Assembly (NCBI GenBank): GCA_902799185.1
Contig: CADBZO010000015.1
Span: 11,733-49,817, forward strand
Source of the DNA: an uncultured Bacteroidales bacterium
Lineage (GTDB): Bacteria; Bacteroidota; Bacteroidia; Bacteroidales; Paludibacteraceae
Length of the DNA stretch: 38,085 bases
Reading direction: 5' to 3'
This document shows positions 18,733-38,085 of this stretch, in pieces (within the stretch, counting starts at the first letter, position 1; each line of letters opens with the position of its first letter). The notes under the pieces were generated by a model. The model had not been told where the DNA came from, did not search any database, and saw nothing but the letters and a program-made list of their open reading frames with translations. The translations under genes were made by a program, and so were the position numbers.

Positions 18733-21258
18733 TTACGAGTCGCCGAATGACATCTGCTGCTGGGAATCCTGTGCGGGGTCGCTGCCTTCCTTCTGCTGAC
18801 ATTTCTTCTGCAGCTGCTCGTACTCCTCTTTCGTGGTGAAATACTTAGCATCAAATCGGAACGGGCGGCACTGCTTGCCGGCTTTCGGCCAATAGACATC
18901 TCCCTCGACGAGATTGGGGTTGTTCTGCACGTCGAGCCATGTGTAGCGCAGCGGCATCTTGCACTTCTTGCTGCCCATCAACTCGACGCCCTTCATGTCA
19001 GAGATCAGATTACGGATGTACTGCTGATCCTTCCGCTTTGCGTCCGGCACATTCTCCCATATATGCTGCACGGTGAACTCCAGATAGAGCCGTTCGGTAT
19101 CAATGAACATCTCCTCCAGATAGTTACGCAACGAGCCCTCGAAATTGGACTGTGTGCCGCTCATCATGGTCGCGAGGTCGGAATTGTATATCTCATCCGG
19201 AGAGAACCACATACGGTGTTCCGACTTCGGCCGGTACATCTTGCCCTTGTAGTACCGTTCCCGGAGGAAGTACAAGAACGCCGGCACTTCCCACTCGATA
19301 GCCTTCTCAAACTCCGGATCGTATTCCGGGTCCGTCCAGGGAGTGACGCGCATCACCCAGTAGCGAATCTCGTCCTTGTCGATGAAGACAGCTTTCTTGA
19401 CCTCGTTGGAGCAAAGCACTATCTTCAGGAATGACGGCATCTCCTTCTTATCCTTGCCCTTCATCTCGACGTGAATGGTCTTGGCGGTAGCCATGAACTT
19501 CAGTTTCTCGCCCACCTCCTTGTTATCGCCCATGGTAGTCTCGTCAATGCCCATGATGAGTTTGCCGGCGAGGAGGCTGTTGAAGTTGGACATGATGAGG
19601 TCGTTCTTGCCGATGACCGCATTATTACCATATATATATTTAAGGAGGTTGAGGAACGAGGTCTTACCGGTGGAACGCTCCCGGCTGACGAACATGATAA
19701 TCGGCAGCGCCTGGAAGGGTTTGAAGTAAGTAAGTGTGATCCAGTCGAGCAGCATCTCATAGTAATCGATGCCGTTCATTTTCGCCGGGTCATATTCCTT
19801 AGTCAGTTGTCGCAGCAGCTTCTCGATGTGCGGCCACTTGCCCTGTTCCGGTTGGTACGGCAGCGGGGAATAGATGTTATAGAACCGGTAGCCGCTACTG
19901 TTCTTGATCTCACGGGAGTAGTTCTCGTGCATCGGGCAGACGTTATAGTCCTCGTAGTACTTATAGAGGTACAGCTTCTTGGCGGTACCCTCTCCGAACC
20001 GGGCGTTCATCACTTTGTCCGACCGGGGCAGGAACTCCCATTCCGAATAGGATGTATTGGCAACCGGCTTCTCGGTCACGAGCACTATCTCCGAGCCGAT
20101 GGCGATATAATCCTCCAGCGACTTATCGAGCAGTGTCACCAGCTTCTTCTCCACCGCCGAATAGCGGTACTTGCCTCCCTCGAACATGAATTCATTCTCA
20201 CCTATCTCTTCGGCGTACTCCTCATAGAAGTGCTTCGGAGAGGAGAGATTGAAGATAGCATTGACTTTCGACGCCTTACTACGCAGATCCAGTTTATTGA
20301 AGTACACACCCGGTCTGCCCGGATGGTTGAGGTCGTCGGCTATCTGCGCCGCCTCGCCCTTGTACTCGTCATCACAAAGCAGGTCATCGATAGCCTTCGG
20401 GCTGTCCTCGTCACGCATCTTGCGGTTGTAGGCAAAGAACAGCTCACACGGTTCGCCTTTCTTGTTCTTGAACTCCAGGAGCATGCCGCGCAGGTTGAGC
20501 AGCGAACTCCGGAAGATCATCTGCCGCTTGCTCAAGTCGGCGCACTGGCCGTTCTTGACATCCTGCAGCGCATCTTTGGACACATCCCTGCAGTCGCCGT
20601 CGTAGAGAATGACGATATTGTCCGGCTGTACGACGTTCAGGAACCGCACGATGTCCGGGTATAGTTGCCCGGTCTTCTGGTCGGCATAGAGCGTGATGGA
20701 GCCCAAACCTATGACCATCATGCCGTGCTCACTGGCCACCATCGCCTTGAAGTAGCCTTCCGTCAGAATCACGGTCTCGATGTGCTCCTGCTTCTTGTAC
20801 GCCTCAAAGAGCTTCGGTGGGAAGAACGGATAGGTACCCTTCTTGGTCTCGCCTCCGGGGAAGAGATACTTGCCGGCTTTCCGGTCGGTCTTCTTGTGCT
20901 CTGCGTAGTTCTCCGGACTGAGGCGGGTGAGGTAGTACAGGTCTTCCACGTCGCCCTCGGAGTACTTGGGCTGGCTGTCCCGGAGATAACTGATGAGCTT
21001 GCCTTCCAGCGTATAAGGGTAGAGCCGGATGTTGTCCTTCTGGTCTGCCTGGAACAATGGGAACGGAGCCGGCAGCGCATTGCCGTTCTCGTCCCGAAGC
21101 ACCTCCTCGCACTCCTTGCCGTTCCCGTCCGTCCAGCGGCGCTTCTGGTAGATGGCAGGACGGTTGCCTATCATCAGAGGCACAGAGTACTGCGCCTCGG
21201 TCAATCCGTACAGCTCGTGGACACGCTGCTGAAGGAATGATTTCTTCTCCTCTGCCAT
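18733..21258 (-). CDS. Replicative primase-helicase, TOPRIM plus SF3-type ATPase (841 aa)
   Basis: Residues about 155-225 form a TOPRIM domain with its acidic residues in ILTEGYFKAM and VILYDGD. Residues about 515-640 are a D5/SF3-like helicase ATPase: Walker A SRERSTGKTSFLNLL, Walker B KLIMGIDET, a following KEMPSFLKIVLCSNE segment with the sensor Asn, and an arginine-rich IRYWVMRVTPW. Such fused proteins prime and unwind DNA at phage origins. The C-terminus has a DNA-binding-like region (IRNLISDMKGVELMG) and a Gln-rich end. It is the largest prophage gene visible and belongs to the early leftward unit. Confidence 0.85.
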   Translation of the reverse strand: MAEEKKSFLQQRVHELYGLTEAQYSVPLMIGNRPAIYQKRRWTDGNGKECEEVLRDENGNALPAPFPLFQADQKDNIRLYPYTLEGKLISYLRDSQPKYSEGDVEDLYYLTRLSPENYAEHKKTDRKAGKYLFPGGETKKGTYPFFPPKLFEAYKKQEHIETVILTEGYFKAMVASEHGMMVIGLGSITLYADQKTGQLYPDIVRFLNVVQPDNIVILYDGDCRDVSKDALQDVKNGQCADLSKRQMIFRSSLLNLRGMLLEFKNKKGEPCELFFAYNRKMRDEDSPKAIDDLLCDDEYKGEAAQIADDLNHPGRPGVYFNKLDLRSKASKVNAIFNLSSPKHFYEEYAEEIGENEFMFEGGKYRYSAVEKKLVTLLDKSLEDYIAIGSEIVLVTEKPVANTSYSEWEFLPRSDKVMNARFGEGTAKKLYLYKYYEDYNVCPMHENYSREIKNSSGYRFYNIYSPLPYQPEQGKWPHIEKLLRQLTKEYDPAKMNGIDYYEMLLDWITLTYFKPFQALPIIMFVSRERSTGKTSFLNLLKYIYGNNAVIGKNDLIMSNFNSLLAGKLIMGIDETTMGDNKEVGEKLKFMATAKTIHVEMKGKDKKEMPSFLKIVLCSNEVKKAVFIDKDEIRYWVMRVTPWTDPEYDPEFEKAIEWEVPAFLYFLRERYYKGKMYRPKSEHRMWFSPDEIYNSDLATMMSGTQSNFEGSLRNYLEEMFIDTERLYLEFTVQHIWENVPDAKRKDQQYIRNLISDMKGVELMGSKKCKMPLRYTWLDVQNNPNLVEGDVYWPKAGKQCRPFRFDAKYFTTKEEYEQLQKKCQQKEGSDPAQDSQQQMSFGDS

Positions 21259-21583: not shown

Positions 21584-21647
21584 AGTCTGGTATTACAAAA
21601 TTGTAGGGGAGAGGAGGGACTCTCCCCTTGTCTTACAACTGCCCAAT

Positions 21648-22058
21648 CTATCCCTCTTGGGTCTCTTCTTCAGGAGCGGCTGCGTCCTGACTCTCGTCGA
21701 GGATGGACAGCAGCTCGTCCAGGTTCTTCGGATGGAGCATACCGCAGATGTACCAGAACCGTCCGACGGAGCGGATACCTTTCGCCCATTCCTGATAGTC
21801 CTTCAGCTGGCGTTCGTACACCTGCTGAGGGGTACCGGGGCTTTTCTTCGGCATCCGGATATCGAAGGCTTTCCGGAACTTGGGCCAGAGGGCGTCCATG
21901 ATCACGTTAATGGTCAATCCTCCCTCCGGCTCTTTGCGGATCATCTCGATTAGTTGCTGGGGAGTAACCTTCGAGAGTTCCGCCAACTGCGTGCGTGTTT
22001 CCTGACGCTCCTTGCGCGTCATCGGCTTTTCAGCCTGAGTGCTTTGCTTCTTTGCCAT
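21648..22058 (-). CDS. Early prophage protein of unknown function (136 aa)
   Basis: A basic, probably disordered N-terminus (MAKKQSTQAEKPMTRKERQE) is followed by a helical core (VTPQQLIEMIRKEPEGGLTI) and a Trp/Tyr-rich segment (QLKDYQEWAKGIRSVGRFWY), ending in an acidic tail (ESQDAAAPEEETQEG). Charge distribution would suit a nucleic-acid-binding or adaptor protein for the neighbouring primase-helicase. It is the first gene after the structured RNA region. Confidence 0.55.
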   Translation of the reverse strand: MAKKQSTQAEKPMTRKERQETRTQLAELSKVTPQQLIEMIRKEPEGGLTINVIMDALWPKFRKAFDIRMPKKSPGTPQQVYERQLKDYQEWAKGIRSVGRFWYICGMLHPKNLDELLSILDESQDAAAPEEETQEG

Positions 22059-22059
22059 G

Positions 22060-22350
22060 TTTAACTAAGTTTTACGTGTTAATCTCTTTGTGAGGGAGAA
22101 CCGAACCAACGGCACCTCCCCCGGTTTGGGAAGCTACTTTCACAAGCTGCTTGCCCTTCGTTTCTAATACCTTTCTATGAACCTTTCTACACACGACCGT
22201 TGCCGGCCGGTTTGCTAACCTTTGCAGGTTGTGAGAGAAGTCCGAACCAACGGCACCTCCCCCGGTGTGGGCAGCTATTCTCCCGAACCGCTGAGCCCTC
22301 TCAGTCTAATAATTGAAGGATCTTTTTTGTACCTTGCTACCTTTGCAGGT
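22060..22350 (-). ncRNA. Structured non-coding region with two copies of a tRNA-like element
   Basis: No coding gene. Two imperfect copies of about 55 nt lie at about 22,093-22,145 and 22,231-22,283. They share 25 consecutive bases (plus 22,101-22,125 and 22,242-22,266, core CCGAACCAACGGCACCTCC). Copy two can form a 7-bp end stem (GGGAGAA / TTCTCTC), and its 3' flank CAACCTGCAAAGGT is the same as the 3' flank of the tRNA at 22,353. A GGTTCG segment resembles a T-arm, but no full cloverleaf forms. They may be degenerate tRNAs or part of one large RNA. Confidence 0.45.
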
Positions 22351-22352
22351 TG

Positions 22353-22426
22353 TTGCGGGAGAAGGAATCGAACCTCCGACCTCCAGGTCGTCAACCTGAC
22401 AAGCTAAACCACTGCTCCATCCCGCG
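22353..22426 (-). tRNA. Phage tRNA with anticodon GAC (valine codons) on an initiator-like body
   Basis: A canonical cloverleaf can be numbered without gaps: acceptor CGCGGGA / TCCCGCA, D-stem GAGC / GCTT with G18-G19, anticodon arm TCAGG-TTGACGA-CCTGG, 5-nt variable loop, T-arm GGAGG-TTCGATT-CCTTC, discriminator A. The 3' CCA is not encoded. Positions 1 and 72 are C and A, unpaired, and the D-stem has A11-U24; both are marks of bacterial initiator tRNAs, and the body resembles tRNA-fMet of Bacteroidota. The anticodon GAC would read valine codons GUC/GUU. Only two of the three G-C pairs that initiators carry in the anticodon stem are present. Confidence 0.85.
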
Positions 22427-22484
22427 GTGCGTGCTCCTATCCGTCACGGCATCAGAGCACTAAAATAAAATGTTCAATTTACCT

Positions 22485-22595
22485 CCCCATTCCTTTTGTT
22501 TGGCTCCTTCAACAAGCTTGGTGGGTGCGACGATCGGACTTTCACCGATATGCTGTCCTTTCAGCATGTTTTATAAGTTAAACAATTAAATGGGG
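22485..22595 (-). ncRNA. Structured RNA domain closed by a 7-bp stem
   Basis: On the minus strand CCCCATT (plus 22,589-22,595) pairs with AATGGGG (plus 22,485-22,491), followed inward by TTGTTT/AAACAA. Inside are ATGCTG-AAAGGA-CAGCAT and ATCGG-TGAAAGT-CCGAT. The stems are clear but no known RNA family is recognised, and the loops do not support a tRNA. Confidence 0.5.
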
Positions 22596-22648
22596 TTACT
22601 ATAAAGATCACCGTGCTCTTTTAGACGGTAGCACCTCCGTTATGGGTC

Positions 22649-22850
22649 ATCGAGGCGGGGTGATGGGCGAAAAGATACATACGGCGGGTGCGAGAGTACC
22701 AGAACCGCACCGGGCGCAGAGGGCAAATCTTAGTAGCAGGCTGCTTTACTGTCTTATCCGGTGTCGCACACTTACCTGCTCCGTCTTAATAGGAGCCCTG
22801 CCGCATGTAGGCTGAGACCTCTCGCGTCTTAATAGCGAGCCAACCTCGAT
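22649..22850 (-). ncRNA. Structured RNA domain with two hairpins sharing a 9-nt loop
   Basis: ATCGAGG (plus 22,844-22,850) and CCTCGAT (plus 22,649-22,655) can close a 202-nt domain on the minus strand. It holds CTCGC-TATTAAGAC-GCGAG (plus 22,821-22,839) and GCTCC-TATTAAGAC-GGAGC (plus 22,778-22,796): identical loops on different but fully paired stems. A further stem pairs GGTGCG with CGCACC. It lies immediately downstream of the 100-aa gene in the early transcript. Confidence 0.55.
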
Positions 22851-22862
22851 ATATTTCAATGA

Positions 22863-23165
22863 TCACTCTATGGGTTCGAAAGTAACCCCTTCTGCCTCCA
22901 ATTCCTCGCACATGGACTTGATAGCCTCATCGGACATGCCCATTTCCTTTGCCTTGTGCAAGAACTTGGGATCGTCCTTGACCAATGCGGTGAACTGCTT
23001 GTGTACATGGCGCGATACTACTTTATGCAGCGCCATCTCTGCAAGCATAATCGGATAAGAACCTGCACCGTCACCGTGCTTTTCCAAATACTCTGTAACG
23101 TCTCTTACGAGGTCGTTAATCCGGAAGGATAAATTAAGGCCTTCCTCAAAATTGCATTCTGCCAT
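22863..23165 (-). CDS. Small early prophage protein between two structured RNA regions (100 aa)
   Basis: Helical protein (MAECNFEEGLNLSFRINDLV, then MLAEMALHKVVSRHVHKQFT) with an acidic C-terminus (SMCEELEAEGVTFEPIE). It resembles no family that I can name. Its gene is isolated by about 400 nt and 800 nt of non-coding, densely paired sequence on either side, so it may be functionally linked to those RNAs, for example as an RNA-binding partner, but that is speculation. The start is preceded by an A-rich leader (AAAACTATAAGATTATG). Confidence 0.6.
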   Translation of the reverse strand: MAECNFEEGLNLSFRINDLVRDVTEYLEKHGDGAGSYPIMLAEMALHKVVSRHVHKQFTALVKDDPKFLHKAKEMGMSDEAIKSMCEELEAEGVTFEPIE

Positions 23166-23169
23166 AATC

Positions 23170-23565
23170 TTATAGTTTTAATTGGTTGTTTACAAAAATC
23201 GGTACGGAGCGAGTCCGACGCTTTTCGGCTGCTGAGCGTTCTACCTATAACACCCGATGCGTTCTACCTAGAACACCCGATGCGTTCTACCTATAACGCC
23301 CGCGGTGTCTTAGTAAGAACGCTCCGATGGGCGGACGCGAACCATGGCGCAGGGCTTTAATCCAACCATGGCTGATGTGCACCCATCCGGTGGCGGTTCC
23401 TAAGTTCCAGTGGACACGCGGGCGGGCTTCCACTATTACCTACAGCCCCTTCACTGACTTATCCGCGCGCTTCTTCTTATCGCCTCTCCTTACTCGAGGC
23501 ACAACCACCGGCAGCCTTATTTCCGGGAATCCTTACTCATCCCCTAACTCCGTACCTTTCAAAGA
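23170..23565 (-). ncRNA. Second structured non-coding region of the early transcript
   Basis: About 400 nt without a gene. On the minus strand it contains GCCTC-GAGTAAGGA-GAGGC (plus 23,482-23,500), CCGG-AAATAAGGCTG-CCGG, a CCATGG/CCATGG hairpin (plus 23,342-23,371) nested in GATGGGT/GCCCATC (plus 23,326-23,387), and array B of 23-nt hairpins. Many loops contain TAAG (GAGTAAGGA, GATAAGTCAG, CTAAGAC), as in the region at 22.6-22.85 kb. Confidence 0.5.
23236..23322 (+). repeat. Array B: four 23-nt-spaced hairpin repeats
   Basis: Units GYGTTCTACCTATAACRC start exactly 23 nt apart at 23,236, 23,259, 23,282 and 23,305, separated by CCGAT or CCGCG; the fourth is degenerate. Read in the plus direction they match array A read on the minus strand, so the two arrays are inverted relative to each other. 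Confidence 0.85.
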
Positions 23566-24078
23566 TCACTGTAGGCGTTTGCCTAATCGTATTACAAAAC
23601 ATTTCTTGTGAGCCGGTGCGCCGTGCCGGACGTTCCCGTAACCAATCCGGATGTCACCGCACTCGTACATCATCGTCTGCTTGCCGCCTTGCCCCCTGTG
23701 GAACCGCACGGCATCGTACTTGCGGAACTCCGTGGCATCCTCCAGCCGGTTCAGGCGCTCGGTGCCTTTCGGATCAAGCAGCCGCTTGTACCAGTAATAA
23801 GTCAGTTCGCGGTACTCCTCACACTTGCGGCCGGACTCGATCTCGTTGTACCAATGGTAGGTGAGCGAGAGGTCGAGGACATCGAAGTCACACTCCACCG
23901 TACCATCGTTCTCATTCAGAATGCGCTGCACGCAATGCGGACACTTCTCGCATTGGAGGGAACCCAGTCCGACCACACCCTTATCGCCTTGCCGGTATGG
24001 GCAGTGCTGCAACGTGTGCTGGGCAATCATCGGCCCGCGCTCCTCCCATGCTATGTCAAACCTTAGTATCTTGCTCAT
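23566..24078 (-). CDS. ASCH-domain protein with Cys motif (170 aa)
   Basis: The C-terminal two-thirds match the ASCH fold pattern: LSLTYHWYNEIESGRKCEEY-R for the conserved substrate or RNA-binding face, YDAVRFHRG, and IRIGYGNVRHGAP before a final FVIRLGKRL strand. The N-terminus adds a CEKCPHC cluster that may bind zinc. ASCH proteins bind RNA or modified nucleosides. A role in processing or binding the adjacent phage RNA is possible but unproven. It overlaps the upstream gene by 23 nt and is followed directly by the second structured RNA region. Confidence 0.75.
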   Translation of the reverse strand: MSKILRFDIAWEERGPMIAQHTLQHCPYRQGDKGVVGLGSLQCEKCPHCVQRILNENDGTVECDFDVLDLSLTYHWYNEIESGRKCEEYRELTYYWYKRLLDPKGTERLNRLEDATEFRKYDAVRFHRGQGGKQTMMYECGDIRIGYGNVRHGAPAHKKCFVIRLGKRLQ

Positions 24079-27624: not shown

Positions 27625-28061
27625 AGAAAATCCTATTTGTCATGGCGGCCATGTGCGTCATCAGCACAACGCACGCCGAGATTAAGCCGGTGAGCCAAGG
27701 AGCGTACAAGACAGAACATGTCGGCGGTGTCACCGATATGTATGTCAAATTGAACTATGCCACGGACGGAAGCTATTATGCCTTCGCCCTCAAGTGTGCA
27801 TCCAAGTTCAATCCTCTTACGTTCTCCCTGGAACTCGGCAAATCTCCGGAGGAAGCGCTGCGCTCCATCGACGCGCTGATCAACATCATGGATACCGGAG
27901 CCAAGTCGGAGATATACACCATCGACGAGCAGACGACAGTTGCTCGGAAATCAAAGAACATGGTGTACATCTTCCGCACCGGCTACGCTGATCCGGGATA
28001 TCTTGAGCGCCGCCATCTGAACAATGCTCGTGAATTTATTCAAATGGCTATACCACAATGA
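27621..28061 (+). CDS. Secreted protein co-transcribed with the repressor (146 aa)
   Basis: Signal peptide (MKKILFVMAAMCVISTTHA, cleavage before EIK) and a mixed alpha/beta mature part (VTDMYVKLNYATDGSYYAFA, then IYTIDEQTTVARKSKNMVYI). Its ATG overlaps the repressor stop, so it is made whenever the lysogen is maintained. A periplasmic protein in an immunity operon suggests superinfection exclusion or a lysogenic conversion factor. This is inference from context; the fold is not recognised. Confidence 0.65.
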   Translation: MKKILFVMAAMCVISTTHAEIKPVSQGAYKTEHVGGVTDMYVKLNYATDGSYYAFALKCASKFNPLTFSLELGKSPEEALRSIDALINIMDTGAKSEIYTIDEQTTVARKSKNMVYIFRTGYADPGYLERRHLNNAREFIQMAIPQ

Positions 28062-28315
28062 ACGAAAAAGAATTAATTGCTCTTATCACAACGAGCATGG
28101 ACCAGAACGTAGCTGCCGAAGATAGGGCAGCGTTTGCCGATTCCATCAAAGCAAGATTGGAAGAGATAATCTTCCCTTCGGATATCGACATCGAAAAGAA
28201 GTACGGTGACCTGCTTCACCAGCTCCTGGACAAAGTGACCGAAGCCGACGAGACGGAAGGTATCAATCCTCACCTCATCGCAGCCGGAGTCGGCAATGCC
28301 TTCTTAGACCGTTAG
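28058..28315 (+). CDS. Small protein of the immunity operon (85 aa)
   Basis: Acidic helical protein (MNEKELIALITTSMDQNVAA, KKYGDLLHQLLDKVTEADET) with no recognised family. It overlaps the secreted-protein gene by 4 nt and is the last prophage gene before the attachment site. A perfect 7-bp hairpin (TAGTCCC/GGGACTA) begins at its stop codon. Confidence 0.55.
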   Translation: MNEKELIALITTSMDQNVAAEDRAAFADSIKARLEEIIFPSDIDIEKKYGDLLHQLLDKVTEADETEGINPHLIAAGVGNAFLDR

Positions 28316-28346
28316 TCCCAGCGCGCATTATGCGTACGGGACTACG
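28313..28346 (+). terminator. Hairpin at the end of the immunity operon
   Basis: TAGTCCC (28,313-28,319) pairs with GGGACTA, with a second inner stem around ATTATGCG. No T-run follows. A further 6-bp perfect hairpin (CACGGC/GCCGTG) lies at about 28,372-28,391. Confidence 0.45.
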
Positions 28347-28482
28347 GAGGAATTGAGAAATTGGCACGAGCACGGCACATAAACGCCGTGAGAGTGCGTG
28401 AACATTGAAAATGTAACTTGTTGAGAATAAGGAAGGAACTCCTTTCCTGCCTCCCGTGTTTCCACCGTCCATCCATCCCTAG

Positions 28483-28502
28483 TTCGATTCTCGGTGGCAC
28501 CA
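28483..28502 (+). other. tRNA 3' fragment, right attachment site (attR)
   Basis: TTCGATT CTCGG TGGCACC A is the T-loop, 3' T-stem, 3' acceptor strand and discriminator of a tRNA whose 5' half is not present upstream. A prophage that integrates into a tRNA 3' end leaves exactly such a duplicated fragment at the far side. The left boundary of the repeated core cannot be set without attL; it may extend upstream of 28,483. Confidence 0.75.
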
Positions 28503-28503
28503 C

Positions 28504-28532
28504 AAAAAACGACCTCACAAGGGTCGTTTTTT
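28504..28532 (+). terminator. Host tRNA terminator
   Basis: AAAAAACGACC (28,504-28,514) pairs with GGTCGTTTTTT (28,522-28,532). It directly follows the tRNA fragment and is the natural terminator of the host tRNA gene, now separated from it by the prophage. Confidence 0.85.
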
Positions 28533-28584
28533 GCGTCATAAGGCACTCTTTTTTGCGGTTTAGCACATTTTTCTCCCCTATTTA

Positions 28585-28616
28585 TTTGCATATATGCAAA
28601 AAAAGCAGTAATTTTG
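28585..28616 (+). promoter_or_regulatory. porQ promoter
   Basis: TTTG (28,585-28,588), 20 nt, TAATTTTG (28,609-28,616), followed by CAGCCG. The ATG of porQ is 18 nt downstream. Confidence 0.85.
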
Positions 28617-28633
28617 CAGCCGATTTAGTTTGC

Positions 28634-29746
28634 ATGATTGTGGCTATAACCCGAAAAATAGGAATTACCCTGGTACTCTGTGCGTGGTCTCTTTGTACCT
28701 TCGCCCAGGTATCGAACGCCGGCCGTTCGGTGTTCTCCTTCATGGGGTTGCCTGCCTCGGCGAGGCTCAACGCGCTCGGAGGAAGCAACGTCAGCCTCAG
28801 CGACGGAGACGTCTCCATGGCGATGTGCAACCCCGCCCTGCTCCATGCCAACTCACACATGGTGCTACAGCTCAACTACTCCTATTATCTCCCCGGTACG
28901 ATGTTCGGCTCCGTGCTCTACGGGCATAACTTCGGACGGTCGAAGATCGAGAAACCCTATGCCGGCGAAGGCGAACCCGACAAACCCAACTATTTCGCTG
29001 TCGGAGTCCATTACCTCGACTACGGAGGGATGAAATATGCGGATGAGCAAGGCAACCTCACCGGCGGTTCGTTCGGCGCACGGGACATACTGATAGATGT
29101 CATGTACGCGCGCCAGCTCGGACGGATGTTCAAGGTCGGCGTGACGCTCAAGCCTGTCTATTCCATCTATGAGAGCTATTCCTCCTTCGCCCTCGGAGCC
29201 GATGTAGGCGCCCATTTCCAGTCGCCCGACTCCACCTTCCAGATGGGACTCGTCCTCCAGAATATAGGATGGCAGCTCAAAGGTTTCTACAGCGCCGAAG
29301 ACGGTTCGAAGAAAGAGATGCTGCCGCTCAACCTCCAGCTCGGTCTCTCGTACCGGATCAAGAAAACGCCGCTCCGCCTGCATATGCAGATACACAACAT
29401 GCAGACCTGGCGGCTGGACTACGCGTGGACCAGCAATGACAAGAGTCTCACTACCGGCGAACCCCTCTCGCATGACGTGAAATGGTACGACACCATGTTC
29501 CGCCATACCATCTTCACCATCGAGATTGTGCCCAAGAGCGAGCGCTTCTATGTCGCTCTCAGTTACAACCACCGCCGCCGTGCGGAACTGCAACTGGTGG
29601 ACCAACGGTCGCTCGCCGGCTTCTCGCTCGGCGCCGGAGTACGCATCAAACAGGCGCGTATATCCTTCGCCGTCAGCCAGGTCACCAAGTCCTTCTTCTC
29701 CTTCCAGGCCGGACTCTCGCTGGACATCAATTCGCTACTGAAGTAG
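28634..29746 (+). CDS. porQ: Type IX secretion protein PorQ (370 aa)
   Basis: Signal peptide (ITLVLCAWSLCTFAQ) followed by a beta-barrel-type outer-membrane protein with FSFMGLPASARLNALGGSNV near the N-terminus, the signature start of the PorQ/PorV/PorP-like family, and MYARQLGRMFKVGVTLKPVY in the middle. PorQ works with PorU, PorV and PorZ in the attachment complex of the type IX secretion system in the outer membrane. The porQ-cmk-ispH order is known from Porphyromonas. The frame is open from 28,418, but the promoter and the signal peptide fix the start at 28,634. Confidence 0.85.
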   Translation: MIVAITRKIGITLVLCAWSLCTFAQVSNAGRSVFSFMGLPASARLNALGGSNVSLSDGDVSMAMCNPALLHANSHMVLQLNYSYYLPGTMFGSVLYGHNFGRSKIEKPYAGEGEPDKPNYFAVGVHYLDYGGMKYADEQGNLTGGSFGARDILIDVMYARQLGRMFKVGVTLKPVYSIYESYSSFALGADVGAHFQSPDSTFQMGLVLQNIGWQLKGFYSAEDGSKKEMLPLNLQLGLSYRIKKTPLRLHMQIHNMQTWRLDYAWTSNDKSLTTGEPLSHDVKWYDTMFRHTIFTIEIVPKSERFYVALSYNHRRRAELQLVDQRSLAGFSLGAGVRIKQARISFAVSQVTKSFFSFQAGLSLDINSLLK

Positions 29747-29775
29747 CTCAGTTTGTGATTTATAATTTGTGATTT

Positions 29776-30450
29776 ATGAATAAAATCATCGTAGCCATCG
29801 ACGGCTACAGTTCTTGCGGCAAATCGACGATTGCCAAGGCGCTGGCGAAGCACGCCGGCTACACCTATGTGGACACCGGCGCCATGTACCGCGCTATCGG
29901 ACTCTACACCCTCCGCCACGGACTGACAGCGGAGAAAGACATCATCGCCGCCCTGCCGCAGATAGAGATCGGTTTCATCCGGGTGGATGATGTCCAGCAC
30001 GTCACCCTCAACGGCGAAGACGTGGAGCCTTTCATCCGGACGCTTGAAGCGGGCAACCGTGCCAGCGAGATATCCCAGATCAAAGAGGTACGCGCTTTTC
30101 TCGTGGCGCAGCAGCAACGCATGGGCGAAGCCAAAGGTATCGTCATGGACGGCCGCGACATAGGTACCGTCGTCTTCCCGGACGCCGAACTCAAACTCTT
30201 CCTCACCGCCACCCCCGAAGTACGGGCGCAACGCCGGTACGACGAGCTGGTAGCCAAAGGCGGGAATCCCGATTATGCAGCCGTCCTCGCCGACGTCAAC
30301 GACCGCGACTACCGCGACACCCACCGCGCCGAGTCGCCGCTACGCCAGGCCGAAGATGCCGTCGTCGTCGATAACAGTCGTATGACGCCCGACGAACAGA
30401 TGCAAGTCATCATCGCCCTCTTCGAAAAGAAACTGGCTCAACTAGAATAA
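29776..30450 (+). CDS. cmk: Cytidylate kinase (224 aa)
   Basis: P-loop near the N-terminus (IDGYSSCGKSTIAKALA), then YVDTGAMYRAIGLYTL and IVMDGRDIGTVVFPDAELKL, all typical of (d)CMP kinase. It phosphorylates CMP and dCMP to the diphosphates in the cytoplasm and is usually essential. Length is normal for the family. The start codon lies within a direct 12-nt repeat (TTTGTGATTTAT at 29,752-29,763 and 29,766-29,777). It is followed by ispH after 5 nt. Confidence 0.9.
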   Translation: MNKIIVAIDGYSSCGKSTIAKALAKHAGYTYVDTGAMYRAIGLYTLRHGLTAEKDIIAALPQIEIGFIRVDDVQHVTLNGEDVEPFIRTLEAGNRASEISQIKEVRAFLVAQQQRMGEAKGIVMDGRDIGTVVFPDAELKLFLTATPEVRAQRRYDELVAKGGNPDYAAVLADVNDRDYRDTHRAESPLRQAEDAVVVDNSRMTPDEQMQVIIALFEKKLAQLE

Positions 30451-30455
30451 CCAGA

Positions 30456-31370
30456 ATGATCATATCCATCGATCAAAACAGCGGTTTCTGCTTCGGTGTC
30501 ACCAGTGCCATCTCCGCAGCGGAGAGAGAGCTCCGTGCCGGAGCTCTTTGTTGTCTGGGCGACATCGTCCATAACGGTCAGGAGGTCTCCCGTCTGGAGT
30601 CCCTCGGTCTTCAGACCATCGACTATGACGACCTCCGCACGCTGCCGCCCCACTCGCGCGTGCTCCTCCGCGCCCACGGCGAACCTCCTTCCACCTACTG
30701 GATAGCCCGTCAACGGGGCATAGAGATCATTGACGCCACCTGCCCCGTCGTCAAGAAACTGCAGGACCGTATCCGCGCCTGCTATGAGACCCACAAGAAC
30801 GACGAGCCCCTCCCGCCGCAGATAGTCATCTACGGCAAACCCGGCCACGCCGAGGTCATCGGACTCCAGGGGCAGACCAACAACACCGCGATCGTCATCG
30901 AGTCCGCCGACCAGCTCGACCGGCTCGACTTCACACGCCCGATATACCTCTTCTCCCAGACCACCAAGTCCATAGAAGGTTTCAACGCCCTCGTAGAAGC
31001 TATTCAATCTCAAATCTCCAATCTCAAATCTCAAATTGTGCTGGAAGCGCACGACACCATCTGCCGCAACGTAGCCAACCGCGTGGCGCGGTTGCAGGAT
31101 TTTGCGCGGCAGCAGGACCTCGTCCTCTTCGTCGGAGGTACCAAATCCTCCAACGCCCGCGTCCTCTACAACCACTGTCTGGAGGCGAACCCCAATACGC
31201 TCTTTATCGCCTCCCCCGACGAACTGGAAGAAAAACTCCCGCCTCTCCACTCTCCACTCTCCACTCTCCACTCTCAACCCTCCACTCTCAAAGTTGGTAT
31301 TTGCGGCGCGACATCCACCCCTCTCTGGCTCATGGAAAAAGTAAGGGACAAGCTCTCGCTCATCCCTTAA
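30456..31370 (+). CDS. ispH: 4-hydroxy-3-methylbut-2-enyl diphosphate reductase (304 aa)
   Basis: Last enzyme of the MEP isoprenoid pathway, with a [4Fe-4S] cluster held by Cys12 (SGFCFGVTSAI), Cys96 (DATCPVVKK) and Cys203 (DTICRNVANR). The catalytic GEP (RAHGEPPS) and GICGATSTP motifs are intact. Two in-frame low-complexity insertions interrupt usually compact regions: about residues 184-194 (QSQISNLKSQI) and 251-268 (PLHSPLSTLHSQPSTLK), both coming from simple DNA repeats. The key residues are conserved, so the enzyme is probably active. Confidence 0.9.
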   Translation: MIISIDQNSGFCFGVTSAISAAERELRAGALCCLGDIVHNGQEVSRLESLGLQTIDYDDLRTLPPHSRVLLRAHGEPPSTYWIARQRGIEIIDATCPVVKKLQDRIRACYETHKNDEPLPPQIVIYGKPGHAEVIGLQGQTNNTAIVIESADQLDRLDFTRPIYLFSQTTKSIEGFNALVEAIQSQISNLKSQIVLEAHDTICRNVANRVARLQDFARQQDLVLFVGGTKSSNARVLYNHCLEANPNTLFIASPDELEEKLPPLHSPLSTLHSQPSTLKVGICGATSTPLWLMEKVRDKLSLIP

Positions 31371-31394
31371 CCTTTCACCTTTCAACTTTCAACT

Positions 31395-34007
31395 TCACCT
31401 GACGCTTGTCAGTTTCTTGATTTTCTCGTTCAGCTTCTTCTCTTTGAGCAACTGCTCCAATCCGATATGCATGCGGTAGTTCCAGAACTGGCGCGGGTTG
31501 GACGGTACGTTGATACGGTCGGCGAACTGATCCTTGATACGTACGTCGCCGTCGATGGCCAGCCAGTCTTGCAACGGTAGGATCGTCCACATGGCCGGAC
31601 TGTACATATGCTGGTTGATGATGAACTCGGCTATCTCCGGTGTCATCTCTTGCGGCGCTTCGCCCCACCAGCCCATCTGCTCGTTGTAGAACCGCTGGGT
31701 CACAGCCCGGTCTTCTTCCCACCATGCGCGGAGCGGGTTCATGTCATGTGTGCCGGTGGTGCAGACACTCTGATACGGCGCGTCGGCCGGATGGGCGAAC
31801 TTGACCGTCGGGTCTTTCGGCATGCGCTGGATCTCCAGAGAGAGGATCTGCAGCTCGTGCATCACGTCGGGCACGCAAGCCGGTACCATACCCAAGTCCT
31901 CGCCGCAGCAGAGCATATGGGTCGAGTGGATCAGCGTCGGCAGCTTGCGCATCGCCGAGTCGCGCCAGAACTGCGTATGACGGCGGTAGAAATAGTCGTT
32001 GTAGATACGCATCAGTACCTCTTTCTGGTCGCTGTAGAGCTCGTTGAACGAATGGCTCTGATAGATGGAGATACGCGGATGGAGCCATCCCGGACGCCGC
32101 TGGTCTTCCACCATCAGCACCTCGCAGTGCAGGTATATCAGTCCGTCGCAGAGGTTCTTCGCCGCCTCGGCGCTCAAGCCGCTTGCCTTCAGCTGTTTCG
32201 GGTCCGCCATCAGCCGGTCGTACCACTCCTGTACCTTCGCCTGGGTGTCAAACTCCGGACGGAAGAAATAGACATAGCCGTCATGCGTGTCCAGCGCGTG
32301 CTGCTTCGCCCATTCGGTGTCATAGCCCAATACTTCGCCTAAGAAGTTCGACCGGATATACGGCTTCGTCATACGGTCCCAGTCGAGGCATACGCCTTGT
32401 GCGCAGAGGTCGTCGTAGCTGTACGGCAGCGCCGGTACGAAATGGCCGCAGAGACCCCACACGTCCGTCTTGCGCATCTGCCAGATACGGAAGAAACCCA
32501 GGATATGATCCACGCGGTAGGCGTCGAAATAGTCCTGCATCTTACGGAACCGTTTCTGCCACCAGCCGAAGTTATCCTCCGCCATTTTGTCCCAGTTATA
32601 GGTCGGGAAGCCCCAGTTCTGTCCGCTGATGGAGAAGTCATCGGGCGGAGCACCGGCGGAAGCGTCCAGATTGAACAGCTCCGGATACACGGAAGCATCC
32701 ACGCTGTCCGGGCTGATACCGATAGGTATATCGCCCTTCATGGCTACACCTATCGAGTGGGCGTAAGCGACCGCGTCCGCCAGCTGCTTGTCGGCGTGGA
32801 ACTGCAGGTACTTGTAGAAATCCGCCGGCTGTTTGTCGCGTTTGTGCAGGAACTCGGCGTACGGCTCCAGCCACTCGGCGTTCTTCGTCTCGAATGCCTT
32901 GTACTCCTCGCTGCCGAAGAGCGCGTCTTTGTCCTGTTTGTACAGCGCCTTGAAGAACACCATCTTCGCGTCATAGACGTTCTGGTAGTCCGCAAAACTC
33001 TTGGCGTTGAACTCCGCCTTCTGCGCCTCGTATTTCTTCTTCTGCGCCGGCGTCAGACGGCCCATCTTCTCAATATTGATATATATCGGATGGAGGGCAA
33101 ACACCGACACGGCGTTGTAGGGATAACTGTCTAAGTTATTGTGTCTCAATGTCGTATCGTTGATAGGGAGGGTCTGGATCATCTGCTGACCCGTAGCCGC
33201 AGCCCAGTCCGCCATCTTCTTCAGATCCTGGAACTCACCGATACCGAATCCTTCCTCGCTGCGCAGCGAGAATACCGGTACGGCTACGCCGGCACCCTTC
33301 CAACGGGGCTGCGTACGGCGGAAACCGCGGTCGTTCTGGCAGATGACCATTCCTTTTTCCACACCCCATATCTGGCGGTTCTCCCCCCACTCGGTGTCCA
33401 CTACGGCACCTGTCTTGAGGTCATAAACCACGTATTTGTACTCGATGATATCCTGCTCTTTCACCTCTATGTCGGCGCGCCAGAGGGGGAACTCCGCATC
33501 GTTCATCACCAGTTTGTCGTCGGCTTTCCAGTTGCCTAACGCCTCGCAGTTACCGATGATCGCTACGCCCTGTGTCGGCAGGATCTGCGGCAGGTCGATC
33601 GAGAAACGGATATTTCCTTTCGCCGCTTTCGCCTTCATCGGTCTGTGGCGTTTGAAGAGCGAGTGGAGGAACGCCGTCGTATAGAAGCTGTCCTCGTACG
33701 TGCTCGCCTGCCATGCGTCCCGCACTACAATCCTGCCCTTCGCGCTTCGTACATCGTCAAACCGTAAATGCCTCGGTTCTCCGGCCTCGTAGATATACCC
33801 GCTGTCTTGCAGCCGGATGGCGTATTTGTATTGCACGCTGCCTGCGAAATCGCTTACCGGCACATTTGCCTGCCAGAAATCTGTTCCCTGGCAGTTCAAT
33901 ACCAACGGCTCTTTCTCCGTCCAACCTAAGATTGACTCCTGCGTTTCAATCACGCAGAGACTCTGCCCGTACTCGGCACGATAGTGAATCTGAAAATTGA
34001 TGTTCAT
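31395..34007 (-). CDS. malQ: 4-alpha-glucanotransferase with two CBM20 starch-binding domains (870 aa)
   Basis: Residues about 1-110 and 125-235 are two CBM20 domains (SILGWTEKEPLVLNCQ; ALGNWKADDKLVMND). The rest is a GH77 amylomaltase: nucleophile Asp in YRVDHILGFFRIW (about residue 498), acid/base Glu in CCGEDLGMVP (about 703), and the THDMNPLRAWWEED motif. It transfers alpha-1,4-glucan chains in the cytoplasm. This two-CBM20 form is common in Bacteroidales and is related in layout to plant DPE2. Its 3' end converges with ispH, 24 nt away. It is driven by a consensus promoter at 34,078-34,109. Confidence 0.92.
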   Translation of the reverse strand: MNINFQIHYRAEYGQSLCVIETQESILGWTEKEPLVLNCQGTDFWQANVPVSDFAGSVQYKYAIRLQDSGYIYEAGEPRHLRFDDVRSAKGRIVVRDAWQASTYEDSFYTTAFLHSLFKRHRPMKAKAAKGNIRFSIDLPQILPTQGVAIIGNCEALGNWKADDKLVMNDAEFPLWRADIEVKEQDIIEYKYVVYDLKTGAVVDTEWGENRQIWGVEKGMVICQNDRGFRRTQPRWKGAGVAVPVFSLRSEEGFGIGEFQDLKKMADWAAATGQQMIQTLPINDTTLRHNNLDSYPYNAVSVFALHPIYINIEKMGRLTPAQKKKYEAQKAEFNAKSFADYQNVYDAKMVFFKALYKQDKDALFGSEEYKAFETKNAEWLEPYAEFLHKRDKQPADFYKYLQFHADKQLADAVAYAHSIGVAMKGDIPIGISPDSVDASVYPELFNLDASAGAPPDDFSISGQNWGFPTYNWDKMAEDNFGWWQKRFRKMQDYFDAYRVDHILGFFRIWQMRKTDVWGLCGHFVPALPYSYDDLCAQGVCLDWDRMTKPYIRSNFLGEVLGYDTEWAKQHALDTHDGYVYFFRPEFDTQAKVQEWYDRLMADPKQLKASGLSAEAAKNLCDGLIYLHCEVLMVEDQRRPGWLHPRISIYQSHSFNELYSDQKEVLMRIYNDYFYRRHTQFWRDSAMRKLPTLIHSTHMLCCGEDLGMVPACVPDVMHELQILSLEIQRMPKDPTVKFAHPADAPYQSVCTTGTHDMNPLRAWWEEDRAVTQRFYNEQMGWWGEAPQEMTPEIAEFIINQHMYSPAMWTILPLQDWLAIDGDVRIKDQFADRINVPSNPRQFWNYRMHIGLEQLLKEKKLNEKIKKLTSVR

Positions 34008-34077
34008 GATATTATTCAGTTTGATGAATCCTCCTTTTCCGGCATACCGGAATACCGCTATACCGTTTAATCGGCTG

Positions 34078-34109
34078 CAAATTTACTACAAATTATTCAA
34101 ATATGCAAA
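34078..34109 (-). promoter_or_regulatory. malQ promoter
   Basis: Minus strand: TTTG (34,106-34,109), 20 nt, TAAATTTG (34,078-34,085), followed by CAGCCG. The leader before the ATG at 34,007 is about 65 nt. Confidence 0.85.
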
Positions 34110-34145
34110 TAAATTTGTATTTTTCTGAATTTTTGTTTCTGCTCT

Positions 34146-34177
34146 CTTGTTTATATGAAATATTTTTTGTACTTTTG
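34146..34177 (+). promoter_or_regulatory. Promoter of the flippase-like gene
   Basis: CTTG (34,146-34,149, imperfect -33), 20 nt, TACTTTTG (34,170-34,177). The ATG at 34,186 is only 8 nt further, so the transcript has almost no leader. Confidence 0.7.
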
Positions 34178-34185
34178 CGCCCTGT

Positions 34186-35064
34186 ATGAACAAACGACTG
34201 CTGCATACTGCCGAATGGGTGATTGCCGCCGTTGCCTATGCTTATCTGGCATACCGGCTGGCTACGTACGAGCATTACGGGCTGCTGGCCGGAAATCTCC
34301 GTGCGATGGGTTGCCGGCAATGGCTGGCGTTGGCGGCGTGTACGGCGCTTATGCCCCTGAACATGCTTGTCGAGGCATGGCGGTGGAAGACACTCGTGCC
34401 CATGCCGCTTCCGGAGGCTCAAAGGCAGGTGTATTACAGCAAACTCGCCGGGCTCGTTACCCCTTGGCGGTTGGGGGAGTACCCTGCCCGGGCGCTCTTG
34501 ATGCGGCGCTCGCCGGCTGGTCCTCACCCGCCGCTTGCCACCGTCCTGTCCATGGGAGCGGTAGGCAGTATCACGATGACGGCAGCCATTGTCTTTGCCG
34601 GGGCGCTGGCGCTGGCGTTCACCCCCGCGGTAAGTACCGTGCTCGGAGGGTATTACGGCGTACTGCTGGCGGCTGTGGGAGGTGTACTGGTTCCGGCATT
34701 GCTGTTCGCGCCAAGACTGTTGAGACGCTGGGCGGTGGTCTCGCACGGGACGGTTCTGAAGAGTCTTGTCCAGAGTCTCATCCGGGAGCTGTGCTGGTGC
34801 GTACAGCTGATGCTGGCGCTGTATGCCCTGAAGGCGACGGAGACAAGCGATTGGTACGCCCTGTCCGCATGGATGAACATGCCTGTTTACTATCTGCTGG
34901 TCACCGTCACGCCTAATATCCCTGTTGTGGAGGCGGGTGTACGCGGCGCATGGGCGATATTTCTGTTCGGCACTCCGAATGCCGCCCTGGCGGGGGTGCT
35001 ATTATGGGCGATAAACACGCTGCTGCCGTGTCTTGCATGGCCCTGTATCAAAGACCATGCGTAA
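34186..35064 (+). CDS. Membrane protein of the LPG-synthase/flippase-like TM family (292 aa)
   Basis: About seven or eight hydrophobic segments, with NMLVEAWRWKTLVPMPLPEA and KLAGLVTPWRLGEYPARALL, the patterns of the lysylphosphatidylglycerol synthase transmembrane/UPF0104 family. The C-terminus has PNIPVVEAGVRGAWAIFLFG, where family members carry a conserved Gly-x-Arg-Gly. No aminoacyl-transferase domain is attached, so it probably acts in lipid or glycolipid transfer and not in aminoacylation. It overlaps the next gene by 8 nt. Confidence 0.75.
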   Translation: MNKRLLHTAEWVIAAVAYAYLAYRLATYEHYGLLAGNLRAMGCRQWLALAACTALMPLNMLVEAWRWKTLVPMPLPEAQRQVYYSKLAGLVTPWRLGEYPARALLMRRSPAGPHPPLATVLSMGAVGSITMTAAIVFAGALALAFTPAVSTVLGGYYGVLLAAVGGVLVPALLFAPRLLRRWAVVSHGTVLKSLVQSLIRELCWCVQLMLALYALKATETSDWYALSAWMNMPVYYLLVTVTPNIPVVEAGVRGAWAIFLFGTPNAALAGVLLWAINTLLPCLAWPCIKDHA

Positions 35065-37003: not shown

Positions 37004-37297
37004 GAGTTAATACCGGTGGCTTGCGCCACGTTAATCGTTATTTTCCGGGTTGTCGTTATGTTCTATTTTGCCTTTTCTCGGGAGATGGTCCCGTGATGGT
37101 CCTGTGATAATGTCGTATTTTACGGCTGTTACTCTTTTTAGAAAAAAACAATTTTGCAAGTCCTCTGATTTTTCTATCAGTCAACAATTATCAACAATTA
37201 TCCAAAAATTAATTTTCAGTCAACAGTACCTATATGAACAATAATTTTCTTTAATTTTGGGTAATTTTGGACCAATAAATTCGCTTTCGACTAACAT
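37004..37297. other. A+T-rich intergenic stretch
   Basis: No credible gene. It holds poly-A/T stretches, a repeated CAGTCAACA, and two tandem TTATCAACA / TTATCCAAA sequences (37,188-37,196 and 37,198-37,206) that resemble DnaA boxes with one or two mismatches. I see no strong promoter apart from TAATTTTG-like boxes near 37,254. Confidence 0.5.
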
Positions 37298-37328
37298 CCC
37301 CCTCCCCCTCTGAGAGGGGGTCGGGGGG
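37298..37328. repeat. REP-like GC-rich palindrome
   Basis: CCCCC T CCCCCTC-TGA-GAGGGGG TC GGGGGG folds into a 7-bp inner and 5-bp outer stem. It lies just downstream of the 132-aa gene and may act as its terminator. GC-rich palindromes of this kind recur as intergenic elements in Bacteroidota genomes. Confidence 0.6.
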
Positions 37329-37340
37329 TGTCGGGTGTCG

Positions 37341-37739
37341 TTACGCTCCCGGGTGCTCGGCGTCGTACTCTGCGCCGCAGACCTGCCAGAGGTAGGCGCG
37401 CATGGTGCGCTTGCCGTTGGCGGCGTTCTTCTGCGCCTCGAAGGCCTCCTGGTCGGCGGTCATGTGGGCGAGGCTGGTGGCGCGGGTCGCTACTGCGGCA
37501 CGGACTGCCGTGAAGCGGTTGCGGATCTCGACCTCCTTGGTGCTCAGCGCCTTGGTGCGCTTGTACGCGTCCGCGTCGCGAGTGTAGAGACGCTGGCAGC
37601 CGTCGGTGCTATTGGTAGCCGCTTGACGGTGCGTAGCGATGAGGTAGTTACCGTGGTTGTGACCGTCCACTTTCTTCGGTCTAAGGAGTGCGCCCTGGAT
37701 GTACTCGATACCTGCAGGGCCGATTTTTGCTTTTGCCAT
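37341..37739 (-). CDS. Conserved-looking protein of unknown function (132 aa)
   Basis: A soluble, helical and Ala-rich protein starting MAKAKIGPAGIEYIQGALLR, with KKVDGHNHGNYLIATHR and a long helix (TRATSLAHMTADQEAFEAQK), ending MRAYLWQVCGAEYDAEHPGA. It has no signal peptide. No family recognised. It lies 77 nt after the small lipoprotein gene and may share its transcript; the gap consists of CTTTCGA-type repeats. The GC-rich codon use differs from the A+T-rich flank. Confidence 0.65.
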   Translation of the reverse strand: MAKAKIGPAGIEYIQGALLRPKKVDGHNHGNYLIATHRQAATNSTDGCQRLYTRDADAYKRTKALSTKEVEIRNRFTAVRAAVATRATSLAHMTADQEAFEAQKNAANGKRTMRAYLWQVCGAEYDAEHPGA

Positions 37740-37816
37740 AATTGTTAAGATTTTGGTTTAATGGTTAATAGTTGGTTTACGCTTTCGCTTTCGACTTTCG
37801 ACTTTTGACTTTCGAC

Positions 37817-37981
37817 TCACTTCTTTTCGCCACGGTAAGTCTCCGTGGTCTTGGTCATGATGGTGGTCGTCGTGTCGCCGTGCTGCACGTAGCTCGCCGT
37901 CGTTGTCACCACGCGGGTTGCCGTACAGGAGGCTAAACCCGCAGCGCCAGCAAGGAGCGCAAAAATTACAATTTTCTTCAT
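37817..37981 (-). CDS. Small lipoprotein (54 aa)
   Basis: Signal peptide with lipobox (MKKIVIFALLAGAAGLASC) followed by a 35-residue, Thr-rich tail (TATRVVTTTASYVQHGDTTT and a basic end). The length fits small lipoproteins of unknown role that are frequent in Bacteroidota. An 8-bp perfect hairpin lies in its 5' region (38,010-38,029). Confidence 0.65.
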   Translation of the reverse strand: MKKIVIFALLAGAAGLASCTATRVVTTTASYVQHGDTTTTIMTKTTETYRGEKK

Positions 37982-38009
37982 CTTGGTTTAGGTTCTACAT
38001 CTTGCATTT

Positions 38010-38029
38010 CTCGCGCATCATTGCGCGAG
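38010..38029. repeat. 8-bp perfect palindrome upstream of the small lipoprotein gene
   Basis: CTCGCGCA (38,010-38,017) and TGCGCGAG (38,022-38,029) with a 4-nt loop. In the plus direction it is followed by CATTTTTAT, so it could end a rightward transcript; in the minus direction it would form a 5'-UTR hairpin. Confidence 0.6.
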
Positions 38030-38085
38030 CATTTTTATAGCGCGCTACTCTTTCTATCAATCCCTTTCTGAGCCGGTGGAACTGA

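Follow-up and report, generated by a model that had tools for sequence, protein, structure and literature searches.

To our knowledge, very few elements are known that act in RNA-based phage antitermination. In the nut sites of phage lambda, boxA is followed by boxB. According to the accessible parts of two articles, boxA is bound by NusB and S10 and serves both lambda early transcription and rRNA transcription (PMC12691694; PMC4807359). On pre-rRNA, the cis-acting elements boxB, boxA and boxC set up the antitermination complex, as stated in the accessible part of an article whose title refers to a leader-trailer helix (PMC10250234). The put RNA of phage HK022, as the available text of PMC9378689 describes it, measures about 70 nt, forms two stem-loops and lies downstream of the early promoters. 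ROOL and GOLLD are phage RNAs that often lie near tRNA islands and form cages (PMC12286853, available part). In Bacteroides phages, the accessible text of PMC11960936 mentions antitermination for the host only. At the level of titles and abstracts, in a literature from which subscription journals are mostly missing, no RNA of this kind has been described in Bacteroidota phages.

Here we compare these systems with a noncoding gap in a 38,085-nt stretch of DNA from an uncultured Bacteroidales bacterium of the Paludibacteraceae, hereafter called the window. By appearance, positions 28,000-38,085 of the window are host chromosome, with open reading frames that we take to be cytidylate kinase-, IspH- and glucanotransferase-like, and the prophage lies to the left.

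Coding content, tRNA and folding energy of the gap

The gap at 22,059-22,862 carries structured RNA and a tRNA-Val(GAC) on the minus strand, which is also the strand of both flanking genes. A first-pass annotation had held that the gap contains no gene and has a genuine tRNA, and both points were borne out. The only open reading frames are mechanical ones of 61 and 57 aa on the opposite strand, neither a convincing gene. The tRNA (22,352-22,426, minus strand) was called by ARAGORN and by Rfam (57.3 bits), is the sole tRNA in the gap and matches the tRNA covariance model with a 7-nt anticodon loop. It shares 84.5% identity over 71 nt with stretches annotated as tRNA-Met in Erwinia and other phages. 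Besides tRNA, no Rfam family was detected, either over the whole window at curated thresholds or within 22,000-23,600 at E-values up to 5. The GOLLD, ROOL and OLE covariance models matched neither the window nor the 16 relative-locus entries (some of which are the same place or rejected hits), in agreement with the earlier statement that GOLLD and ROOL are not recognisable here. In a blastn search of a phage collection the whole gap hit 54 records, and the best 20 of the 54 all fell on the tRNA; the gap minus the tRNA gave no match. Viral contigs contained no close relatives of the two flanking proteins.

The first-pass annotation had also described several well-paired domains. Thermodynamically they are weaker than described: folding energy stands out at 22,478-22,600 (z -2.91; 2 of 200 shuffles equally good), is ordinary for 22,642-22,862 (z -0.82; 41 of 200) and is modest at 22,060-22,345 (z -1.87; 7 of 200). 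Folding energy alone was unimpressive, and comparison with relatives was needed to decide. The separate fold at 22,485-22,595 (minus strand, closed by CCCCATT/AATGGGG) kept its thermodynamic support, but blastn found no relatives of 22,478-22,600 in ten relative loci, and this fold is not tied to the family described below. Two elements that had been read as tRNA-like repeats proved to be copies of a 64-nt direct repeat, 81% alike, at 22,229-22,292 (hairpin at 22,269-22,298) and 22,088-22,151 (hairpin at 22,128-22,156), both on the minus strand; by eye their hairpins have GNRA-type caps, and neither matches Rfam tRNA at E up to 5. The 79 nt at 22,258-22,336, which overlap the first of these copies, are 91% identical in the viral locus L078. 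Before the tRNA, a hairpin with CCGUGACGGAUAG (22,431-22,460, minus strand) has similar counterparts, judged by eye, in L003, L017 and L023 (the same place as L086). Comparison backs 22,060-22,640 only in part, and the defining modules of the gap are confined to 22,645-22,863.

Two units of nested modules in the window

Unit a, on the minus strand, starts with the boxA-like ATCATTGA (22,856-22,863), one base off ATCTTTGA, and the first base of this motif is the last stop-codon base of the gene at 22,863-23,165. Its outer module (22,649-22,850) is closed by AUCGAGG (22,844-22,850) and CCUCGAU (22,649-22,655), with six of six outer pairs and a sequence that differs in relatives. The ATCGAGG/CCTCGAT helix pointed out in the first-pass annotation is real, as the outer helix of a conserved module. 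Inside it lie the outer P2 hairpin CTCGC-TATTAAGAC-GCGAG (22,821-22,839) and an inner module (22,676-22,809), which is closed by UACAUGCGGC (22,800-22,809) and GCCGUAUGUA (22,676-22,685) and contains the inner P2 hairpin GCTCC-TATTAAGAC-GGAGC (22,778-22,796). Helix P3, CACCGG/CCGGUG (5' strand from 22,763, 3' strand to 22,708), surrounds a type II core of 50 nt (22,711-22,760) that is identical in L009 and L090.

A second unit, b, had been missed; it occupies the gap at 23,166-23,565, again on the minus strand. Behind a boxA-like ATCTTTGA (23,559-23,566), the RNA (23,201-23,556) is closed by GGUACGGAG (23,548-23,556) and CUCCGUACC (23,201-23,209). In the anchored pairing test given below, the L078 homologue of this closing helix formed six of six outer pairs, and the window copy was missed, with three of six. 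The outer hairpin (23,525-23,544) has the loop GAGUAAGGA and a mismatch next to it. The inner module (23,387-23,511) has the P1 strands CCGGUGGU/GCCACCGG, the P2 hairpin GCCTC-GAGTAAGGA-GAGGC (23,482-23,500) and the type I core GGATAAGTCAGTGAAG (23,449-23,464). Within unit b, at 23,236-23,320, a 39-nt repeat starting GCGTTCTACCTATAACACCCGAT occurs in three copies with 23-nt spacing, and in the predicted fold the copies pair with one another.

Relatives of the units

The accepted relatives come from seven further genus members and from nine IMG/VR contigs; they are few, some are near copies of one another, and the model E-values are rough. A DNA search of 200 family genomes matched seven, namely the genome of the window itself, G187, which we regard as real (L003, L018 and L089 are one place), and five judged to be chance (L004-L008). 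The shared-core pattern led to L009 in IMG/VR. A three-sequence covariance model was run on 178 genomes, of which six matched at E up to 0.1 and two were judged chance (L013, L014); it recovered G254 (L012, L017, L021, L090), G243 (L015, L022, L088) and the second window copy at 23,392-23,500. With a seven-sequence model, 15 of the same 178 genomes matched at E up to 0.02 and eight were accepted, the window's own included. This model added G334 (L023, L086), G242 (L024, L085), G261 (L025, L087) and G138 (L028, L084), whose scores are weak (E 2e-4 to 0.0135) and which were taken on loop, core, tRNA-like structure or synteny. The genus matches L026, L027 and L029-L033 were set aside. L017 comes from sheep colon (Paludibacteraceae) and L018 from pig (Bacteroidia).

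Pattern searches of IMG/VR gave L076 and L078, and later L135, L168, L177, L184, L186 and L235. One of these searches returned 15 viral contigs, three of which were kept (L009, L076, L078); the later ones returned 52 and at least 120 contigs. Among the matches listed there were 132 boxA-plus-loop sites, 12 of them with a stem of at least four pairs, and eight on six contigs were kept. L191, L211 and L240, which also have such a stem, were dropped, and L153 was neither kept nor dropped.

Beyond the genus, 35 of 393 genomes of the order matched at E up to 0.02, the window's own included. The 29 foreign loci (L036-L064) all lack the nine-base-loop hairpin and were rejected, 28 of them lying in open frames longer than 200 codons (the exception, L041, in one of 80 codons); five further foreign genomes gave no locus. 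In the family, 15 of 330 genomes matched at E up to 0.005, five being the own genome and four known relatives. Of the ten others, three gave no locus, and the seven loci read (L121-L127) have no hairpin. Four of these lie in long open frames; L123, L125 and L126 are outside long frames and are not counted as relatives. L125 and L126, from another genus of the family, share a noncoding GGGGAUAAGUCAGUAAAG...CCCC at about 1500-1560, with no nine-base-loop hairpin. Thus no relative outside the genus was accepted among the foreign loci read (29 from the order, seven from the family). Both searches used stricter Infernal filters and scored few candidates per genome, and since the family search missed G138, known from the genus search, absence elsewhere is not proved.

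Conserved modules and covarying stems

Each module consists of an outer helix P1 (...GGU/GCC...), a hairpin P2 with a nine-base loop and, often, the core GGAUAAGACAGUGAAG. P2 sits a few bases inside P1, which typically ends GGU/GCC. The loop, UAUUAAGAY or GAGUAAGGA, is carried by a stem that covaries; all accepted units but L087 contain at least one such loop on a stem of at least three pairs. The outer pairs of P1 vary by unit, being AUCGAGG/CCUCGAU, ACAUGCGG/CCGUAUGU, GAUUAGCAGG/CCUGCUAAUC, AUAUCUGG/CCAGAUAU, AACGGCGGGG/CCCCGCCGUU and others. In unit a, unit b, L076a and L078b, the outer module encloses an inner one whose core is GGAUAAG[A/U]CAGU[A/G]AAG. Units can be as small as about 110 nt, in L085, while others reach several hundred nt.

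With a slightly wider loop pattern and stems of at least three pairs, the 188.7 kb of window and relatives contain 23 hairpins, against 1.75 in mononucleotide shuffles, and all but one of them (L089, 9369) fall within the RNA gaps. Among 25 loops in these gaps, picked regardless of stem and comprising 20 distinct sequences, 21 have a stem of at least four pairs, compared to a mean of 2.3 and a maximum of 10 in 10,000 shuffles. The 20 distinct hairpins had 92.0% of cells paired versus 50.9% when shuffled, 45 double-change cells versus 16.4 and a covariation score of 1.059 versus 0.256, with none of 500 shuffles as high on any of these. The remaining two of the five measures, both-side-change pairs (186 of 500) and further pair types (157 of 500), were not above shuffles, because the P2 stem columns vary so freely. 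Covariation among homologues, which the first-pass annotation had proposed as a check, is thus present in the nine-base-loop hairpins by our own shuffle tests. Across 13 core domains aligned to the model, P2 and P3 taken jointly were 97.1% paired versus 69.8% and scored 0.583 versus 0.148 (0 of 500 as high), in an alignment that is biased toward the model structure. For P1, anchoring the 3' strand on its sequence context gave at least five of six outer pairs in 15 of 25 modules, whereas strand swaps gave a mean of 4.4 and a maximum of 11 in 5000; the context pattern was drawn up with examples already in view, and the modules include near copies of one another. With a free 3' partner P1 was weak, five of the 25 modules reaching p ≤0.05 and two lying beyond all 60 shuffles. 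By eye, the core loop might form a pseudoknot with the 3' strand, but no such pairing was seen in L017, and it is not claimed.

The first-pass annotation had named an eroded coding or pseudo-tRNA cluster as a case that would speak against a structured RNA. The 200-nt domain and 22,060-22,345, with their ordinary to modest folding energies, would be in keeping with such a decayed cluster or coding sequence folding by chance, but this reading is contradicted by the compensatory changes in P2 and P3 and by the outer pairing of P1, as well as by conservation across phage contexts and by synteny, and we consider it highly improbable. Collectively, these comparisons support the placing of the domain at 22,649-22,850 in a modular RNA family that is absent from Rfam.

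By eye, the cores fall into at least three types: type I in unit b and L078b; type II in unit a, L009, L003, L017 and L076a; and type III in L186 and L235, with similar cores in further copies of L017 and L009. L186 and L235 share their outer scaffold with L076a but differ from it in the core, and the L184 loop is GAGUAAGGA versus UAUUAAGAC in the closely similar L086 unit. At L078 4252-4420, a scaffold of the L076 type keeps its boxA and first hairpin and is broken off in the second loop, TATTACACC, before the core; an intact type I unit lies near it. A further similar domain, seen by eye, follows boxA at L089 7532-7650 and at L090 4820-4940, closed by AACCUCGCUAC/GUAGCGAGGUU and UACCUCACUAC/GUAGUGGGGUA.

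A boxA-like motif ahead of most units

The motif that starts most units resembles boxA in sequence. Fourteen units located without the motif as a query were tested, L087, with no such hairpin, being outside the test. Exact ATCTTTGA occurs at most 60 nt upstream of the first hairpin in eight of the 14, and ATC[T/A]TTGA (AUC[U/A]UUGA in RNA) occurs in ten, 22-28 nt before the first hairpin, with 0.004 occurrences expected per unit by chance. GATCTTTGA is found further upstream in L089 and in L090 unit 2. L009 has GATCTAACACA only, twice, and no boxA stands in front of the unit in L087 or L088. The fixed-loop hairpin follows boxA, and no protein that binds this hairpin was identified.

TCTTTGA also lies upstream of 16S in nine of 14 rRNA loci of the order, two genomes giving two loci each; the own genome assembly is without 16S, and this comparison rests on other genomes of the order. 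By leader, it was present in nine of ten loci with leaders of 359-400 nt and in none of the four with shorter ones. After 16S, L083 has TTCTTTGACATAATGAAA, versus ATCTTTGACATAATGAAA in L090. A reading of GATCTTTG as a promoter was set aside because the TA of the -7 box, which the Bacteroidota -7 box contains, is absent.

Genomic context of the units

A 136-aa gene (21,648-22,058, minus strand) lies directly downstream of unit a. It is present in four of 178 genus genomes, the own included, and in the other three the RNA is directly upstream of it. Between this gene and the replication genes is a G-rich terminator-like hairpin (21,605-21,628, minus strand), and the primase gene (DUF5906; 18,733-21,258, minus strand) follows downstream. 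The order of unit, small gene, gene of about 100 aa and primase is shared by five syntenic loci (window, L078, L084, L085, L086), the small gene of L078 being assigned by position and size, without alignment. The place directly before this cassette is taken by a type II unit in the window and by a type I unit in L078. The upstream gene differs among the five, that of L086 resembling the window's (27% identity). Elsewhere the setting changes: in L087, Mu-like transposition genes lie downstream behind a 64-aa frame, and the primase of L089 matches other families.

In the syntenic loci the unit is preceded by the stop codon of one gene and followed by the start of another. This would suit a 5' leader, either riboswitch-like or bound by a protein, that controls how the downstream mRNA is translated and processed and how stable it is, boxA then being incidental. 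We think this improbable, since the boxA-like motif is position-constrained, the downstream genes differ between phage types, and no Rfam regulator reached its cut-off in the window or the relative loci.

A boxA at a narrow distance, a covarying fold and a position before replication or transposition genes fit an antitermination element. We therefore tentatively favor, at a little short of even confidence, the view that the units are cis-acting phage RNAs of the nut/put type, which would render RNA polymerase resistant to termination in an early operon. In this view, the host NusB-S10 pair would bind to the boxA-like AUCUUUGA once it is transcribed, and the folded modules that follow immediately could attach to the elongation complex or bring in a phage factor. 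Polymerase would thereby become resistant to Rho and to the later terminators of the early operon, allowing expression of the replication genes. RNase P and RNase Z might excise the tRNAs or tRNA-like structures of some units, or these structures might protect the transcript. The modules, covarying stems, boxA-like starts of most units, positions and tRNA-like pieces are observed; that the units are transcribed, bind Nus factors, affect termination and are processed is inferred. The interchange of types I and II before one cassette and the core exchange in L186 and L235 would be expected of a host-factor site with swappable phage-specific parts.

Several findings count against antitermination. 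The G-rich hairpin follows the small gene in all five syntenic loci, but its U-tract is clear in two only (L084, L085), being broken in the window, slight in L086 and absent in L078, and terminator-like sites in the window region are not enriched (11 versus 11.5 in shuffles). The boxA is lacking in L087 and L088 and deviates in L009. By ORF layout, unit a lies about 4 kb inside its operon, whereas the lambda and HK022 elements are promoter-proximal, and in size some units greatly exceed nut and put sites. Finally, no antiterminator was named among the window proteins scanned (ten against Pfam and ten against PHROGs, partly the same proteins).

tRNAs and tRNA-like structures near the units

A tRNA or tRNA-like structure is present in the window, L009, L087, L090, L135 and L177. 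It is not a constant part of the family, because ARAGORN finds no tRNA in eleven loci (L076, L078, L084, L085, L086, L088, L153, L168, L184, L186, L235). Those of L017, L009 and L025 score 47.5, 45.7 and 45.2 bits with the tRNA model (cut-off 29) and retain the acceptor, D and T arms. At the site of the anticodon loop, however, they have 4, 1 and 14 nt, their alignments skipping 7, 11 and 5 model positions, respectively. The L009 structure (4122-4187, minus strand) is 66 nt long, with a single nucleotide replacing the anticodon loop. L135 and L177, which have the same sequence at that point, carry a normal tRNA-Asn(GTT). In L090, L135 and L177 the order is tRNA or tRNA-like structure, boxA, RNA, with 7 nt from the tRNA end to ATCTTTGA in each; the full order in L090 is boxA, large structured RNA, tRNA-like structure, boxA, second structured RNA. 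Sub-threshold Rfam matches in the relatives (plastid leader, 3'UTR models, mir-7, a tmRNA fragment) were set aside; all except mir-7 fall on tRNA or tRNA-like T-arm sequence.

The order in L090, L135 and L177 mirrors the rRNA spacer, and the tRNA-like structures of L017, L009 and L025 suit processing and not decoding. Both agree, as does a 50-nt core identical in different phages, with a possible, if rather doubtful, second reading: a large structured RNA acting in trans in a ROOL/GOLLD-like role, in which boxA would only shield untranslated synthesis from Rho and tRNAs or tRNA-like structures would punctuate a precursor from which mature RNAs are released. Against it speak units as short as about 110 nt (L085), one truncated in L078, the several paralogous units per operon with no sign of a constant full-length molecule, and the fact that the unit stays before the same downstream genes in five loci. 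The nut/put-like and trans-acting readings are not mutually exclusive. It is conceivable, although unlikely, that the units are phage mini-mimics of an rRNA operon, transcribed by an rrn-type Nus complex and cut by RNase P and RNase Z at tRNA-like punctuation, releasing abundant modular RNAs with exchangeable cores.

Comparison with known systems

The first-pass annotation had suggested that the roughly 800-nt gap may be a new large structured RNA of Bacteroidota phages. Covariation, synteny and absence from Rfam support a structured RNA family that Rfam lacks, but not a single 800-nt molecule. With ROOL and GOLLD the units share the setting only, a phage and a nearby tRNA, and other units of the family are without a tRNA. 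They differ in giving no covariance-model match, in their modular, variable length and boxA-like start, and in having no single conserved full-length fold.

Like HK022 put, the units are structured phage RNAs in an early operon, proposed here to act on the elongation complex. The available text on put makes no mention of boxA (PMC9378689), whereas most of the Bacteroidales units have one and many are larger, and we see no relation between the folds. The put format of about 70 nt, two stem-loops and a place near an early promoter is not that of the window units, which are mid-operon, larger and nested.

What the units have in common with lambda nut and rRNA boxA signals is a boxA-like element shortly upstream of a hairpin, in an early-phage or untranslated transcript. 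Here, in contrast to nut, a much larger nested module stands in the place of boxB, units are mid-operon and recur, and no N-like protein is known for the Bacteroidales phage units. Compared with the pre-rRNA leader in the accessible part of PMC10250234, a boxA followed by a closing helix in the phage RNA is a suggestive parallel only.

A family that joins a host-like boxA to exchangeable structured cores and to tRNA-like structures without a normal anticodon loop would offer a new handle on early operons of these phages, and a connection, open to experiment, between transcription of the rRNA type and large phage RNAs. The 16S-tRNA-boxA-23S spacer differs from the phage arrangement, which contains no rRNA and in which the tRNA-like pieces of L017 (= L090), L009 and L025 are without a normal anticodon loop. 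Nevertheless, L090, L135 and L177 show the same order of tRNA or tRNA-like structure, boxA and structured untranslated RNA as that spacer.
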